Assembly: GCA_016222805.1 (NCBI GenBank)
Contig: JACRQG010000017.1
Location: 1-64,000, forward strand
Reading direction: 5' to 3'
DNA: 64,000 nucleotides
DNA from: Verrucomicrobiota bacterium
GTDB taxonomy: Bacteria; Verrucomicrobiota; Verrucomicrobiia; Opitutales; Opitutaceae
Shown here in pieces: positions 56,424 to 63,022 of this stretch. How positions within the stretch are numbered: the first letter of the stretch is position 1; the number at the start of each line of letters is the position of its first letter. A program made the translations under genes and the position numbers. The notes below the pieces were generated by a model. That model had not been told where the DNA came from and ran no database searches. It saw nothing but the letters and a program-made list of their open reading frames with translations.

Positions 56424-56861
56424 TCAGGCGGTGCCAAAGGCCTCCGTTGCGGACGTCCCCCGCGGGCGGCGGGCCGGCTGAAACGGCCTCACAAACGCTT
56501 CCTCAAAGTCGAAGATGTCCGCGAAGTCCTCTTTTCGATCATTCTCCGTCTTCGAGAAGACATTGTATTCAATGAGGTTGAAGACAATGTCGCCGAAGTC
56601 GCGGCAACGCTTCACTCCCCAGGAGTTCAGCACCGTCTTGGCCAGGGGACCGTACTGGTCGAGGGCATAAGAGCGCAGTCCCTCCAGCAGTTCCGGGCCG
56701 GAAACATGACGCGATCGCTCGGCCCGGGCGTTGTCCCGTTTCCTCATCTCCTTGACCGTGAAATCCAGGCCTAGGCGGACGAAATCGTAGGCTTTCCGAT
56801 CGAATCGGGGATCTTCCTTGCAGATGAGAGCGACGATTTCGGCGAAATCCGGGTTTTGCAT
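56424..56861 (-). CDS. Minf_1886 family protein
   Basis: A 145-residue small soluble protein matching the Minf_1886 family, found in Verrucomicrobiota and Planctomycetota. Seen: YDFVRLGLDFTVKEM, HVSGPELLEGLRSYALDQYGPLAKTVLNSWG and the C-terminal FGDIVFNLIE. Function unknown. It lies 75 bp upstream of the M16 gene on the same strand and diverges from the Fur-type regulator with 129 bp between starts. No catalytic motif or export signal is visible. Confidence 0.85.
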   Translation of the reverse strand: MQNPDFAEIVALICKEDPRFDRKAYDFVRLGLDFTVKEMRKRDNARAERSRHVSGPELLEGLRSYALDQYGPLAKTVLNSWGVKRCRDFGDIVFNLIEYNVFSKTENDRKEDFADIFDFEEAFVRPFQPARRPRGTSATEAFGTA

Positions 56862-57595: not shown

Positions 57596-58333
57596 TCAGC
57601 CCGCCGCGGCAAAGCGCGCGGCCACGGCGTTCCAATCGACGATGCTCCAGAACGCCGCGACATAATCCGCCCGGCGATTCTGGTATTTGAGATAGTAGGC
57701 GTGCTCCCAGACATCCAGCCCGAGGAGCGGAACGGCTCCTTCCATGAGAGGCGTGTCCTGGTTGGCGGTGGAACTGACCTCGAGTTTGCCGCCGCGACGA
57801 CTCAGCCAGGCCCAGCCGCTGCCGAAGCGCTTCATCGCCGCCTCTCCAAACTGCGTCTTGAAACCCTCCAGGGAACCGAAACTCCGGTTCAAGGCCGTCG
57901 CCAACTCTCCCGTCGGCGCCCCGCCTCCCTTCGGGCCAATCACCTGCCAGAAGAGCGCGTGGTTGAGGTGGCCACCCACGTTGTTGCGGAGCACGGTCCG
58001 CACGGACTCCGGCAGCGCACCGAGGTTGGCCACCATTTCCTCAGCTGACCGTCGTGTCAGGTCCGGGTGGCCGGCGAGAGCGTTGTTGGCATTGGTGATG
58101 TAGGCCTGGTGATGTTTGGCGTGATGAATCTCCATCGTCCGCGCGTCGATGTGCGGTTCCAGGGCATCGTAGGCGTACGGGAGTTTCGGCAGGGAAAAAG
58201 GCGGCACAGTGCGGGAACTGGCGGCCGAGGCCGCGAGGGCAGGACGCACGGCGGCACCCAGGCCAAGGGTGGTCACACCGGCGCCGATCGACTTCAACAG
58301 GGCGCGACGGGAAAGCGGGGAAGTGGGCGACAT
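57596..58333 (-). CDS. sodA: Tat-exported superoxide dismutase, Mn-type
   Basis: Dismutes superoxide. The 245-residue protein has a Tat leader ([12 protein letters not shown]) and then the Fe/Mn SOD fold with metal ligands H70 (MEIHHAKHH), H125 (NHALFW), D207 and H211 (LDVWEHAYY). Gly-rich [10 protein letters not shown] and Gln192 (NQDTPL) favour manganese over iron, a rule of thumb. The leader indicates a periplasmic enzyme, unlike the usual cytosolic SodA. The Fur-type gene converges on it from the left, and the ABC fusion gene ends 43 bp upstream of its start. Confidence 0.93.
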
Positions 58334-58376: not shown

Positions 58377-61300
58377 TCAGGAACCCGCCGCTCCCAGGCG
58401 AATGCGCGGATCCAGCCAAAGCAGGAGGAGATCGCTCACCAACGTCCCCACCACGCCGAGCAGGCTGAGGAGCATCAGCATCGAACCCGCGAGATAGACA
58501 TCCTCGGCGATCAGGGCATCGAACAGCGTCGGTCCAATCATCGGCAGACTGAGAACCATCGCGACGATGGCCCCGCCCGACACCAGGTGTGGGAACATTC
58601 CACCGAGGCTCGAGATGAACGGATTGAGTGCCAGCCGCACCGGGTACTTGAGCAACAGTCGCAAGGGACGGACTCCCTTGGCCCGCGCGGTGGTGACGTA
58701 GGGTCGCTTCAGTTCGTCGAGCAGGTTGGCGCGCATCACGCGGACCATGCCCGCCGCCGATCCGGCGCCCAAAACCACGACGGGAAGCCAGGCATGCTTC
58801 AGCAGGTCCAGCACCTTGGCCCCGCTCCAACCCGGCATCGAGGCGAACTCCGGCGAAAACAGGCCGATGCTCTCCAATCCCAGCCAGCGGCGAGCCACGT
58901 ACATCACGACGAGCGCGAGCAGGAACGATGGAACCGACACCCCGAGAAACCCCAGGAACGTCAGCGCAAAATCACCGGCCGAGTACCGCCGCACCGCCGA
59001 GTAGACGCCGAGCGGCAGCGCCACCGCCCAGGCCAAGAGCACCGCCGCGAGGGAGATGAAGACCGTGAGGGCGACCCGATCCCCAATCACCTCGCCCGCC
59101 GGTTTCTCGTGCTCCATGGACAGCCCGAGGTTGCCCTGCAGCAGTCCCTCGTCCGCGGGCTGAAAGGTTGCGAACCAACGGAAGCCCATCCACCGCGCGT
59201 AGCGTTGCCACAGCGGCTCATCGAGGCGGAAGTTGCGCCGCACTTCGGCCGCCAGTTCCGCGCTCGCCGGCGTCCCCTCCATCTCGAGCCGCGCCACGCG
59301 CATCTCCGCAAAATCCCCCGGCGGCAGCTGCACGAGCCCGAAGACAATGACCGAGACCACCAGCATCGTCGGCACCATCAGCAGGAGACGGCGCCCGATG
59401 AGCGGGTGCCGCAGCAGGATCAGGACCGCCCCGGCACCGGCCGCCACCCAGCCCAGCACGCGCACCAACCCGCCCAGCCACCCCCGCCCTCCCCCGGCGG
59501 CCAAGGCGGCGGACCGCGGCCAGGGAGACACCGTCACCATCGCGTCCCGGACCTGGGCGGTGATCGCGGGATCCTCGCGCGAGTGCTCCCAGAAATAGGT
59601 TTCCACCCCGGTGTTGCCCGGCGTCTGGAAGTTCGCCCCGAAGACCGCCATTCGCGGAACGTTGCGAAAGCCTTTCTTCACCACCACCAGTTGCGGCGGC
59701 GGCGACGACACGCTGATGGTCCATACATGGTCGGCCGCGATCTCCTGCACCTCGCGAAAACGCGCAATCCGCTCCTCCTCCCTCGGCAGCTGGCTCGCCT
59801 CCTCGAGGATCTCCATCGCCCGGCGCAGCGGGTGATCGCGCGGAGGCTCGATCGCGTTGGGCCGTCGTGCCGCCGGGTCCCCATACAGGCCGCCGGCCTG
59901 GTACCAGGTCCCGTACCCCGGAGCGAAGAACGACTCGAAGTAAGTCGGCACGAAATTCCGCGGTTCGATCAACGGATAGAACTCACTTTCGCCCGTCCAC
60001 ACGGTGAAATCGTGCTCATAGGTGAGCTTCTCCTGCTCGAACAGCCGCCGCGCCCGGGCCCGGAACAGGACACGCACCCCGACCGCGGCCCAGTCGTCGA
60101 TCACAAATTGCGCCGGACCATCGGTGGTGTAGTCGGTCAGGTTCAGCGTAAAAGTCATGCGCGTGCCGTCGGGAAACACCCGAAAACCCTCGGAATCGCG
60201 CTGCCGCAGCCCCAGGTCGTCCAGCAGGCGGTTGGCCCGTGCCGGATCGTGCTCCACGAACGACCGCCGCAGGCGCTCATGGTAATACGGCGAGTCCGCC
60301 GGCGGCGCAATTTGGGCCGGCTCGGTCTGCCCGTTGAACTCCGCCCGGATGATGTCGCGACGGTTGATGGCCAGCGACAGCGCCTGCCGGAACTTCGGCT
60401 CGTTCAGGAGACGGTGCTTCCACGCGGTGTCCGGCCGTCGCGGATCAACCTTTCGGTTGAGATTGGGAAAGACGGTGAAGAGGGACTGCGTGCTCGGCTT
60501 CCAGTGGTACACCTCGTAGTCGTGGGCCGCCGCCCCGCCGAGCAACAGCGTGTGGTCATCGTAACGGATGTGACGATCCTGCATCGACACCTCGCCGTTG
60601 GCGGCGGCCACCGCGATGAGGTTGTTGGACTTCAGCTCAAGGACCAGCCGATCGAGGTACGGGAGCTGGTTGCCCTGGGTGTCGACCGCCCAGTAGTACG
60701 GGTTGCGCACCAGGGTTTGCGGGGTGGTCGGATAGTAGGTCCGAAGCACCCAGGGCCAGAGCCGCGGGTGTTCGGGGTTGAGGTAGTGCTTCATCCGCCG
60801 GTACACCGCCACCGGGCTCGAGAGCTCAAACGCCTCCATCGTCCGGCGGATCAACTCGGGGTCTCCCACCGCCGGGTGGAATTGGCGCAGGTAGTGGGCC
60901 GGCAGGATGTGCTCGATGTGCTCTTCGGGGTTCATCCCGGTTGAGGCCAGCCTCTCCAGGAACAGCGGATTCGCCTGGCTGAACTCGAACCGCACCCGGC
61001 GATCGTCCACCTTCGTCACCCGCCCGAGTTCCGGTCCCGCGCGCAGCAGCTTGGGAACGAGGTTGAAGTAGCGCACCTCGTGTTCGTACCAGAAGACGAT
61101 GTCATCCGCGGACACCGGGTGGCCGTCCGACCAGCGCATGCCGCGCCGGAGTTCAAAGGTGTACACCCGACGGTCCGGAGAGACCTCCCACGTCTTGGCC
61201 ACATGCGGGACGATTGGATACCCCTGCGGCGACCACCGCACCAGGTTCGAAGCGGACAATCGCCAGTAGATCGTCGACAGGTCCGTCATCGAGTTCACGA

Positions 61301-61685
61301 ACCGGTGCCAGGTCCCGCCGTAACGGCCGATCCCGTCCGGCCCTTCCATGACGACCGGCTCCGGCCCGGTTCGCTGCGCCACGGGCGGCAGCCGACCTTC
61401 CCGTACCAGCCCCGCCAGGATCGGAGACTGGCCACGCGGCCGCCAGGCGGGACGCCCTCCCGCGGCGTAGTCGACCTCGCGCGTGACCACCGGAGGGTGT
61501 TCGCGCGCCACCTCGCGCGCCCGTTCCCGCGCCTCCGCGACCGCCTGCAACTGTGCCGGCGGCGCGGCGGGCGGAGGTGCCGCGACCTCCGGACGAAACA
61601 GCCACCCCGCCCCGAAGAGGAGCAGCCCGAAGGCGAGGGCGGCCCCGCCCAGCCCGGCCAGAATGACGAGCAAGCGCCTGTTCAC
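58377..61685 (-). CDS. Fused solute-binding protein (family 5) and DppB-type ABC permease
   Basis: A 1102-residue chain combining two transporter parts normally made separately. An N-terminal TM (about 4-28) is followed by a periplasmic SBP_bac_5 domain (about 110-690: [50 protein letters not shown]). A C-terminal permease of the DppB class follows ([44 protein letters not shown] loop [12 protein letters not shown]). No ATPase or DppC-type partner gene is adjacent. The GTG at 61685 is chosen because the TM starts directly after it; upstream codons are open but unlikely. Cargo is probably a peptide or oligomer. Confidence 0.9.
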
Positions 61686-61812
61686 ACGAGTGCTGGGCGC
61701 GACAAAACTCCCGGACGCCGTGAACGCAATGATGTTCAACCGCCGCTCCCGCGACCTCCTGAGCACTTGCCAAGTACCGGCCCCGCTGCGAGCGTGCCCC
61801 CACCATCGTCCC

Positions 61813-62703
61813 ATGCGCTCTCCGATCTCCCGCCGTCATGCCCTTCGCAACCTCGCCGGCGCCGCCGCCCTCGCCTCGCTTCCGGCGGGCCGCGCCGCCG
61901 AAAGCGCCCTCGGTGGCGGATTCCGCCAGTCGGTCTGCAAATGGTGCTACAAGGACATTCCGCTGGATCGCTTTTGCGCCGAAGCCAAGGCGATGGGCCT
62001 CGCTTCGGTCGAATTGCTCAATCCCGAGGAGTTTCCCACGCTGAAGAAGCACGGCCTGCACTGCGCCATGGTGAGCAATCCGACCGGCAAGACTCCGGCC
62101 GGCGTCAACGTGGGCGGCATCGCCAAGTCCTGGAACCGCGTCGAACACCACGACACCCTCGTCGCCCTCTACGAGAAGCGCATCGCCGAAGTGGCGGAGG
62201 CCGGGTTCCAGAATCTCATCTGCTTCTCCGGCAACCGCGAGAAGATGGACGATCAGCAGGGCCTCGAGAACTGCGCCCTTGGCCTGAAGCGGCTCATGGG
62301 TCTGGCGGAGAAACGGGGAGTCACGCTCGTGATGGAGCTCCTCAACTCCAAGGTGAACCACAAGGACTACATGTGCGACCGCACGCCCTGGGGGGTGGAG
62401 TTGTGCAAGCGGATCGGCTCCGAGCGCTTCAAGCTCCTCTACGACATCTACCACATGCAGATCATGGAGGGGGATGTCATCCGCACGATCAAGGACTACG
62501 CCCCGTACCTCGCGCATTACCACACCGCCGGCAACCCCGGTCGCAACGAGTTCGAGCCGCAGGATCAGCAGGAGCTCAACTACCCGGCCATCATGCAGGC
62601 CATCAAGGCGACCGGGTTCAAGGGGTTCGTGGGCCAGGAATTCCTGCCCAAACGCGATCCCCTCACCTCCCTCCGCGCCGCCGTGAAACTCTGCGCCGTC
62701 TAG
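61813..62703 (+). CDS. Tat-exported hydroxypyruvate-isomerase-like TIM barrel
   Basis: A 296-residue protein with a Tat leader (SRRHALRNLAGAAALA) and a xylose-isomerase-like barrel: SVCKWCYKDIPLD, VMELLNSKVNH (Glu ligand), LYDIYHMQIMEGD (Asp/His), HTAGNPGRNEF and VGQEFLP (Glu). The wording is that of the hydroxypyruvate isomerase (Hyi) group. It is divergent from the ABC fusion gene with 127 bp between starts. Export of such an isomerase implies a periplasmic sugar-acid substrate, which is an inference. Confidence 0.9.
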   Translation: MRSPISRRHALRNLAGAAALASLPAGRAAESALGGGFRQSVCKWCYKDIPLDRFCAEAKAMGLASVELLNPEEFPTLKKHGLHCAMVSNPTGKTPAGVNVGGIAKSWNRVEHHDTLVALYEKRIAEVAEAGFQNLICFSGNREKMDDQQGLENCALGLKRLMGLAEKRGVTLVMELLNSKVNHKDYMCDRTPWGVELCKRIGSERFKLLYDIYHMQIMEGDVIRTIKDYAPYLAHYHTAGNPGRNEFEPQDQQELNYPAIMQAIKATGFKGFVGQEFLPKRDPLTSLRAAVKLCAV

Positions 62704-63022
62704 CGCCGGGTTTCCCCCTCGCGGTGCGGGGCCGCCACCGCCGTGATACAGCGCGCAAGTTGTCGCCGGCTCGCTGAGGCCGGCCTCGACCCGGAGATCG
62801 AAGCACGGCCCCCGGTCGGCGATCCCGCCTGCCACTGGACCGTCGCATGCCGGGGCCAATAGAAAGAGCGCTGGCACACCCCGAAGATTGCCTGCTTCCC
62901 GCCGGCTTGGTCCCGCGGTGGCATTCTCCTTGCTTCCGCCGGGACAGTCATTTGACCTCCCTCGCCGCTACCATTGCCCACCTGCGAACGCGCCCCGTTC
63001 GCTCCCTGCCCCTTTTCCACCC
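62704..63022. other. Gene-free region before the fourth TonB receptor
   Basis: 319 bp without a coding signal. It contains GGCCGGCCTCGAC (62779-62791), a stretch shared with the inverted-repeat elements after pyc, probably a decayed relative. It must also hold the receptor promoter; no clear -35/-10 pair was found by eye. Confidence 0.45.

Follow-up and report, generated by a model that had tools for sequence, protein, structure and literature searches.

Among described importers, DppABCDF of E. coli (8z1v; PMC12136057) resembles the system analysed here in having an SBP_bac_5 receptor, a DppB, a DppC with an OppC_N domain and two different ATPases, and a heterodimeric B/C pore is expected for both. 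The E. coli translocator is described as inactive without receptor and ATP, and a scoop motif of DppB reaches into the receptor (PMC12136057). Covalent attachment of a receptor to a pore subunit has been described for GlnPQ and EgtUBC (PMC8025302, PMC9732360) and for OpuA (PMC11065425). GlnPQ is presented as a homodimer, so that each transporter has two or more receptors (PMC8025302, PMC9732360), and the linked arrangement is said to aid fast delivery (PMC8025302). Gram-negative receptors are described as typically soluble and receptor-pore fusion is named for Gram-positives (PMC9732360), and receptor fusions among TRAP transporters are called rare (PMC8276074). No receptor-permease fusion of the Opp/Dpp family was recognised in the open-licence literature searched. 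OpuF is reportedly a further receptor-permease fusion, going by the title of a paper in a reference list, and OpuF, GlnPQ, EgtUBC and OpuA all belong to importer families other than Opp/Dpp.

In the window, a stretch of 64,000 nucleotides on contig C12 of an Opitutaceae (Verrucomicrobiota) genome, a fused receptor-permease gene (AB, encoding protein P0001) occupies positions 58377–61685 of the minus strand. The sequence-only reading had reported an SBP_bac_5 receptor and a DppB-type permease in one unbroken frame, and this is borne out by a single open frame of 1145 aa (58377–61814, minus strand) with zero internal stops and by three Pfam domains, all above their curated cut-offs (SBP_bac_5, residues 201–605, E 5.7e-49; BPD_transp_1_N, residues 806–919, E 9.5e-6; BPD_transp_1, residues 932–1139, E 1.7e-26). 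The frame stays open up to an ATG at 61814, its far end, and the GTG at 61685 is residue 44; because no conserved sequence is visible upstream of the GTG in an alignment of 39 fused proteins, the GTG is the likely start codon rather than the ATG. Compared to E. coli DppABCDF, the receptor is not a separate protein and instead forms one chain with DppB and an added linker helix, and the genes of the system lie at two loci. With a probability of roughly 0.8, AB would combine, as a single protein, the DppA and DppB of an Opp/Dpp-family Type I importer that works with DppC, DppD and DppF encoded on contig C17 of the same genome, has exactly one tethered receptor, and probably takes up an oligosaccharide. 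The sequences themselves show the architecture, its recurrence, the hydrophobic linker segment and the co-occurrence with DppC, and trees support a single origin of the fusion.

Along the chain, an N-terminal membrane helix, either a signal anchor or a signal peptide, is predicted at residues 46–72 (61599–61679) by hydropathy and corresponds to helix 3–29 of an AlphaFold2 model; the 19-residue hydropathy of this helix is at least 1.76 in all 38 fused proteins with an N-terminus (L176, which has none, was excluded). The receptor domain (residues 128–742; 59589–61433) is an SBP_bac_5 domain of the ~600-aa type, based on Pfam, on matches to 5ipw and SPH1118 and on Foldseek. A linker (residues 743–805; 59400–59588), delimited by alignment and hydropathy, contains a predicted extra membrane helix at residues 779–802 (59409–59480) followed by basic residues, and leads into the DppB-type permease domain (residues 806–1145; 58380–59399), which was assigned by Pfam and by its match to the DppB of PDB 8z1v (E 2.6e-28). 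All of these features are on the minus strand. Residues 1033–1047 of the permease domain (58674–58718, minus strand) form, judging by sequence, an EAA-type coupling loop.

The junction was compared among 39 distinct fused proteins, the remainder of 45 fused sequences after six duplicates were dropped; as these proteins were chosen for being fused, their unbroken junctions alone are no test of fusion. The receptor is separated from DppB by 55–70 residues (alignment positions 745–806) that include a hydrophobic stretch, and hydropathy, measured as the peak 19-residue Kyte-Doolittle mean, is at least 1.49 in 39/39 proteins and at least 1.6 in 38/39, with a net charge of +2 to +4 after the stretch, on its inner side, in all 39. 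A membrane anchor already present at the C-terminus of unfused receptors was considered and rejected, the tails of unfused receptors peaking at 1.32 or less (n = 23) and at 1.15 or less in six further receptors from the phylum. Windows inside the receptor bodies of fused proteins peak at up to 1.56 (median, 0.95; none at 1.6); hydropathy alone thus leaves a membrane helix undecided for the weakest linker (L044, 1.49). The AlphaFold2 model, built from 55 aligned rows (mean pLDDT, 80.4; pTM, 0.71), places the linker helix at 736–759, directly preceding DppB helix 1 at 761–786, with low to moderate confidence for the linker helix (ten-residue means, 46–65). In unfused operons, the permease starts near its own first helix. 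In this family, the receptor ends outside of the membrane and DppB begins inside, and a fusion of the two therefore needs one extra membrane crossing, which the linker helix would supply. In its periplasmic part, the linker varies in both sequence and length, as could be expected if the chain were cut there after insertion, yielding a soluble receptor and an ordinary DppB, with the fusion merely coupling their synthesis 1:1. This is considered improbable, as a conserved cleavage motif is absent from the alignment when inspected by eye only; the conserved linker helix fits permanent attachment, though it is not decisive, because a chain cut at a later stage would need the helix as well.

The possibility that two normal genes were joined by a sequencing or assembly error, with a stop or frame break lost, draws on an unfused Opitutales locus, L052, in which receptor and permease share one frame with a single stop codon between them (L052:11972–11987). 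The 39 distinct fused proteins originate from many assemblies, however, and their junctions contain the hydrophobic segment that unfused relatives lack, leaving such an error with practically no chance. A stop or frameshift between the domains is excluded by the recurrence of the fusion in independent assemblies, and an error or pseudogene was rejected on the same grounds.

A scan of genome contigs with six short peptide patterns, which divergent independent fusions would escape, identified 48 loci. Sixteen of these (L036–L051; from Opitutae, Opitutaceae, Opitutus or Verrucomicrobia) are fused, with best-segment identities of 64–77%, and 16 of the other 32 have a permease match beside the receptor. 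Of these 16 distant loci with a permease, 15 were frame-checked (all but L071) and none were fused, so that no fusion from another phylum was found among them: unfused operons of the same phylum and of Paracoccus, Devosia, Actinopolymorpha, Caldilineaceae and Lachnospiraceae encode homologues of the same subunits, with receptor and permease as separate genes in 15/15 frame-checked loci and, in contrast to AB, no linker helix. Within the family of the window, the fusion is present in 24 of 100 genomes; G070 and G087 have fragments only, located at contig ends, and that of G087 spans the permease alone. For the four genomes of the window's own genus, it is present in G000 and G006 and absent from G054 and G081, both of which also lack DppC. 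Across 387 genomes of the phylum, 30 had a match at E ≤ 1e-70, of which 23, from 10 family codes, are fused and seven are unfused or cut (fused status was judged by frame length with a second look at doubtful cases; G308 is cut at a contig end). The fusion itself therefore stands as described in the sequence-only reading, but as a patchily distributed trait of 24/100 family and 23/387 phylum genomes instead of a one-off.

A permease-domain tree of 63 rows (40 fused and 23 unfused, rooted on L173 and L174) separated all 40 fused rows from the rest by a single well-supported branch (UFB 99, SH-aLRT 100), which was recovered in all 200 bootstrap trees checked. This tree left out sep_L077 (long branch), L215 (cut), L184, L188 and L194 (the same as L217, L216 and L218, respectively) and 14 of the 21 rows of the clade described below as split; a quick tree of 55 rows agrees on a single fused branch (SH-aLRT 99). 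The nearest rows outside of the fused branch are unfused and from the same phylum (L205, L206, L208, L211 and L052), and unfused operons of this phylum encode homologous subunits, usually in the same order (A-B-C-D-F in L206–L208 and L210; A-B-C in L052). One origin is the simplest reading of a single fused branch among unfused rows, and the fusion probably arose once, nested among unfused A-B-C-D-F operons. No close unfused orthologue with the same flanks was found, with 0/16 and 0/23 unfused rows falling within the window's clade. G005 and G035 were examined as possible close pre-fusion relatives and rejected, as both sit on a very long branch in two trees. Receptor-pore fusions have been described mainly for Gram-positive importers, and those studied have homodimeric pores; here, a Gram-negative phylum appears to have acquired the fusion once, in an Opp/Dpp-family importer, with a membrane helix added for topology.

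The second part of the earlier claim, that no DppC or Dpp ATPase gene lies next door and that the partner must be elsewhere in the genome, was confirmed for the window. Neither was found within C12:54000–73000, and in whole-genome searches contig C12 had no PF00528 match besides AB and neither an oligo_HPY nor a close DppD match. The genome as a whole has 18 PF00528 matches and four oligo_HPY matches (one under the cut-off), and contig C17 encodes DppC (P0002), DppD (P0003) and DppF (P0004) in a row, lacking a receptor or DppB. P0002 possesses OppC_N and BPD_transp_1 domains, while P0003 and P0004 both possess ABC_tran with Walker A, signature and Walker B motifs; oligo_HPY is above the cut-off only in P0004, and only for its first half, with the P0003 match below the cut-off. 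These DppD/DppF-like ATPases (L031:5877–7666, contig C17), with at most half of an oligo_HPY, lack the cluster of C-terminal cysteines through which E. coli DppD/DppF bind [4Fe-4S]. Mycobacterial ATPases are reported to be connected with or without a [4Fe-4S] domain (PMC12136057), so the cysteines would be a trait of E. coli Dpp and not family-defining.

The absence of neighbouring partner genes holds for the window's clade and does not extend to the fusion in general. Outside of the window's clade, 17 of the 18 fused loci of the family have DppC behind the fusion, including L154, where a GFO_IDH_MocA oxidoreductase lies between the two; L162 has no DppC within 7.5 kb downstream, although it is outside of the split clade. 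In the phylum set, DppC follows the fusion in 14/14 fused loci. The DppC encoded behind fusions is 58–73% identical to the C17 DppC (45% in L103, a truncated copy), and the DppD of five fused operons is 61–73% identical to the C17 DppD. In the family set of 100 genomes, 22 have both the fusion and DppC, two have the fusion only, two have DppC only and 74 have neither (Fisher p = 1e-17, a statistic that ignores the relatedness of the genomes). The two genomes with DppC only, G005 and G035, each have A and B unfused, and those with the fusion only are G086 (86% complete) and G087 (72% complete, with the permease fragment), neither of which had a DppC match. Based on homology and co-occurrence, AB on C12 would pair with DppC-DppD-DppF on C17, and the annotation would be corrected in that the apparently receptor-less C-D-F operon would have its receptor at another locus.

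Alternatively, AB could be served by other subunits, such as the OppC of contig C28 or the ATPases of contig C35, leaving the C17 operon with another task. C35 has a second OppD/OppF pair located away from permeases, C28 has OppB/OppC without an oligo_HPY ATPase, and sugar importers with shared motors are known (MsmX; PMC7658222). The identity of the C17 DppC to those behind fusions and its co-occurrence with the fusion speak against this, as does the C35 OppD, which is only 53% identical to the C17 DppD, below the values for the five fused operons; the alternative is judged very improbable. Separately, a second Opp-type system in this genome may also be split, with three receptors, OppB and OppC on C28 (L032) and OppD and OppF on C35 (L033).

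Within the window's clade, AB occurs alone in 21 distinct loci, without C-D-F nearby, although some offer little downstream sequence (0.3 kb for L051). Twelve genomes of this clade were searched whole, and DppC was located elsewhere in 10 and absent in G086 and G087; D and F follow DppC in nine of the 10, with D on a third contig in G060. In G062, AB (C23:91–95 kb) and DppC (C23:25–26 kb, with D and F beside it) are ~65 kb apart on the same contig, and the split is therefore not an artefact of contig ends. The AB trees favour a single split (support of 97 in the 55-row tree and 100/98 in the 63-row tree), and the suggestion of one event rests on these. The DppC tree was set aside as weak evidence for a single split event, as two linked rows are interspersed among its split rows, which do not form one clade (2 changes).

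With AB and the C17 subunits taken as one importer, we infer its membrane topology, complex assembly, stoichiometry, kinetics and ligand. The chain would begin in the cytoplasm, cross the membrane with its N-terminal helix, fold its receptor domain in the periplasm and cross back through the extra linker helix, so that the six helices of the DppB domain take their normal orientation. Together with the C17-encoded subunits, a DppC-type permease and the ATPases DppD and DppF, AB would form a transporter with a B/C heterodimeric pore; as only one half of such a pore is fused, each transporter would have exactly one receptor. Tethered permanently by ~35 periplasmic linker residues, the receptor would deliver ligand by repeated local docking and not by diffusion; by analogy to GlnPQ, whose linkage is stated to favour delivery (PMC8025302), it should dock repeatedly on its own pore. 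The altered stoichiometry and kinetics that the earlier reading ascribed to tethering are plausible by likeness to GlnPQ and OpuA. AB would nevertheless differ from GlnPQ in its Gram-negative lineage, a probable heterodimeric pore (in relatives, DppC is encoded as its own gene behind the fusion), one receptor and the extra membrane helix. Such a natural system, with one tethered receptor and a heterodimeric pore, would allow the benefit of freely diffusing receptors to be compared against close unfused relatives.

Tentatively, importers of the Verrucomicrobiota may be modular, with a fused AB and its own DppC making up a dedicated uptake unit that has a single tethered receptor, and with one DppD/DppF motor encoded elsewhere driving several such units. 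Four fused frames occur in G012, three in G042 and three in G057 (one a fragment), each genome having one DppD at least 57% identical to the C17 DppD, and D and F are both visible in only five of the 18 family fused loci outside of the window's clade, some of these stretches being short. In the phylum set, DppD starts directly after DppC in at least seven of 14 loci, and such common complete operons count against a shared motor. If motors were shared, tethering would prevent a receptor from docking on the pore of a paralogous unit. Several fused paralogs per genome with few DppD relatives of the same type were also seen in G033, G063 and G032, a hint at shared ATPases.

For the ligand, the receptor half is nearest to PDB 5ipw (E 3.3e-88; the listing names no ligand) and to SPH1118 (E 8.9e-71), the fold of which it matches at a TMt of up to 0.90 (Foldseek), followed in fold comparison by MelB and chitooligosaccharide receptors. 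SPH1118 of Sphingomonas sp. A1 (7ver), likewise of the ~600-aa subtype, is a receptor protein of its own and is described as binding pectin and unsaturated trigalacturonate (PMC9314435). Only five of its 16 ligand contacts are kept in P0001 (R294, R466, R496, E505 and F592) and 11 differ; R57, R438 and W594 are lost, and four further contact positions are aromatic (W184, Y418, Y562 and W606). With this degree of conservation, pectin itself is unsupported as the ligand. Peptide uptake, as the family names suggest, would agree with the best NCBIfam models of both halves, which are oligopeptide or nickel transporters and all below cut-off, but the nearest receptors with stated ligands bind pectin, melibiose/raffinose and chitooligosaccharides, and carbohydrate genes lie near fused loci of relatives. 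Among 116 genes near 16 fused loci outside of the window's clade (15 with DppC), the commonest by raw count of the 25 of 149 families listed, describing the neighbourhood of relatives and not of the window, are GFO_IDH_MocA (n = 7), sulfatase (n = 5), AP_endonuc_2 (a sugar-isomerase-like TIM barrel; n = 5) and MR_MLE (n = 4), with UxuA and alginate lyase occurring once each. A peptide importer is thus rather unlikely, and an oligosaccharide is probably the likeliest class of ligand.

Both loci have conserved flanks and therefore look like stable chromosomal places. A divergently arranged neighbour of AB (61814–62704, plus strand) encodes a xylose-isomerase-like TIM-barrel protein (PF01261) that is found near AB in 17 of 21 clade loci, and for which a role with the transporter is possible. 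Downstream of AB, at least one of a superoxide dismutase, a FUR-like protein, a 145-aa protein and an M16 peptidase is present in 20 of the 21 fused loci of the clade, the window's own included, and the C-D-F operon is near HflX in six of 10 loci. The 145-aa protein (56424–56861, minus strand), which had no Pfam match at E ≤ 1e-5, is near the fusion in 16/21 clade loci, its own included, at 67–100% identity. Directly behind the fusion, the window encodes a Fe/Mn superoxide dismutase (57596–58333, minus strand), present at this place in part of the clade only, whose start is twin-arginine-like.
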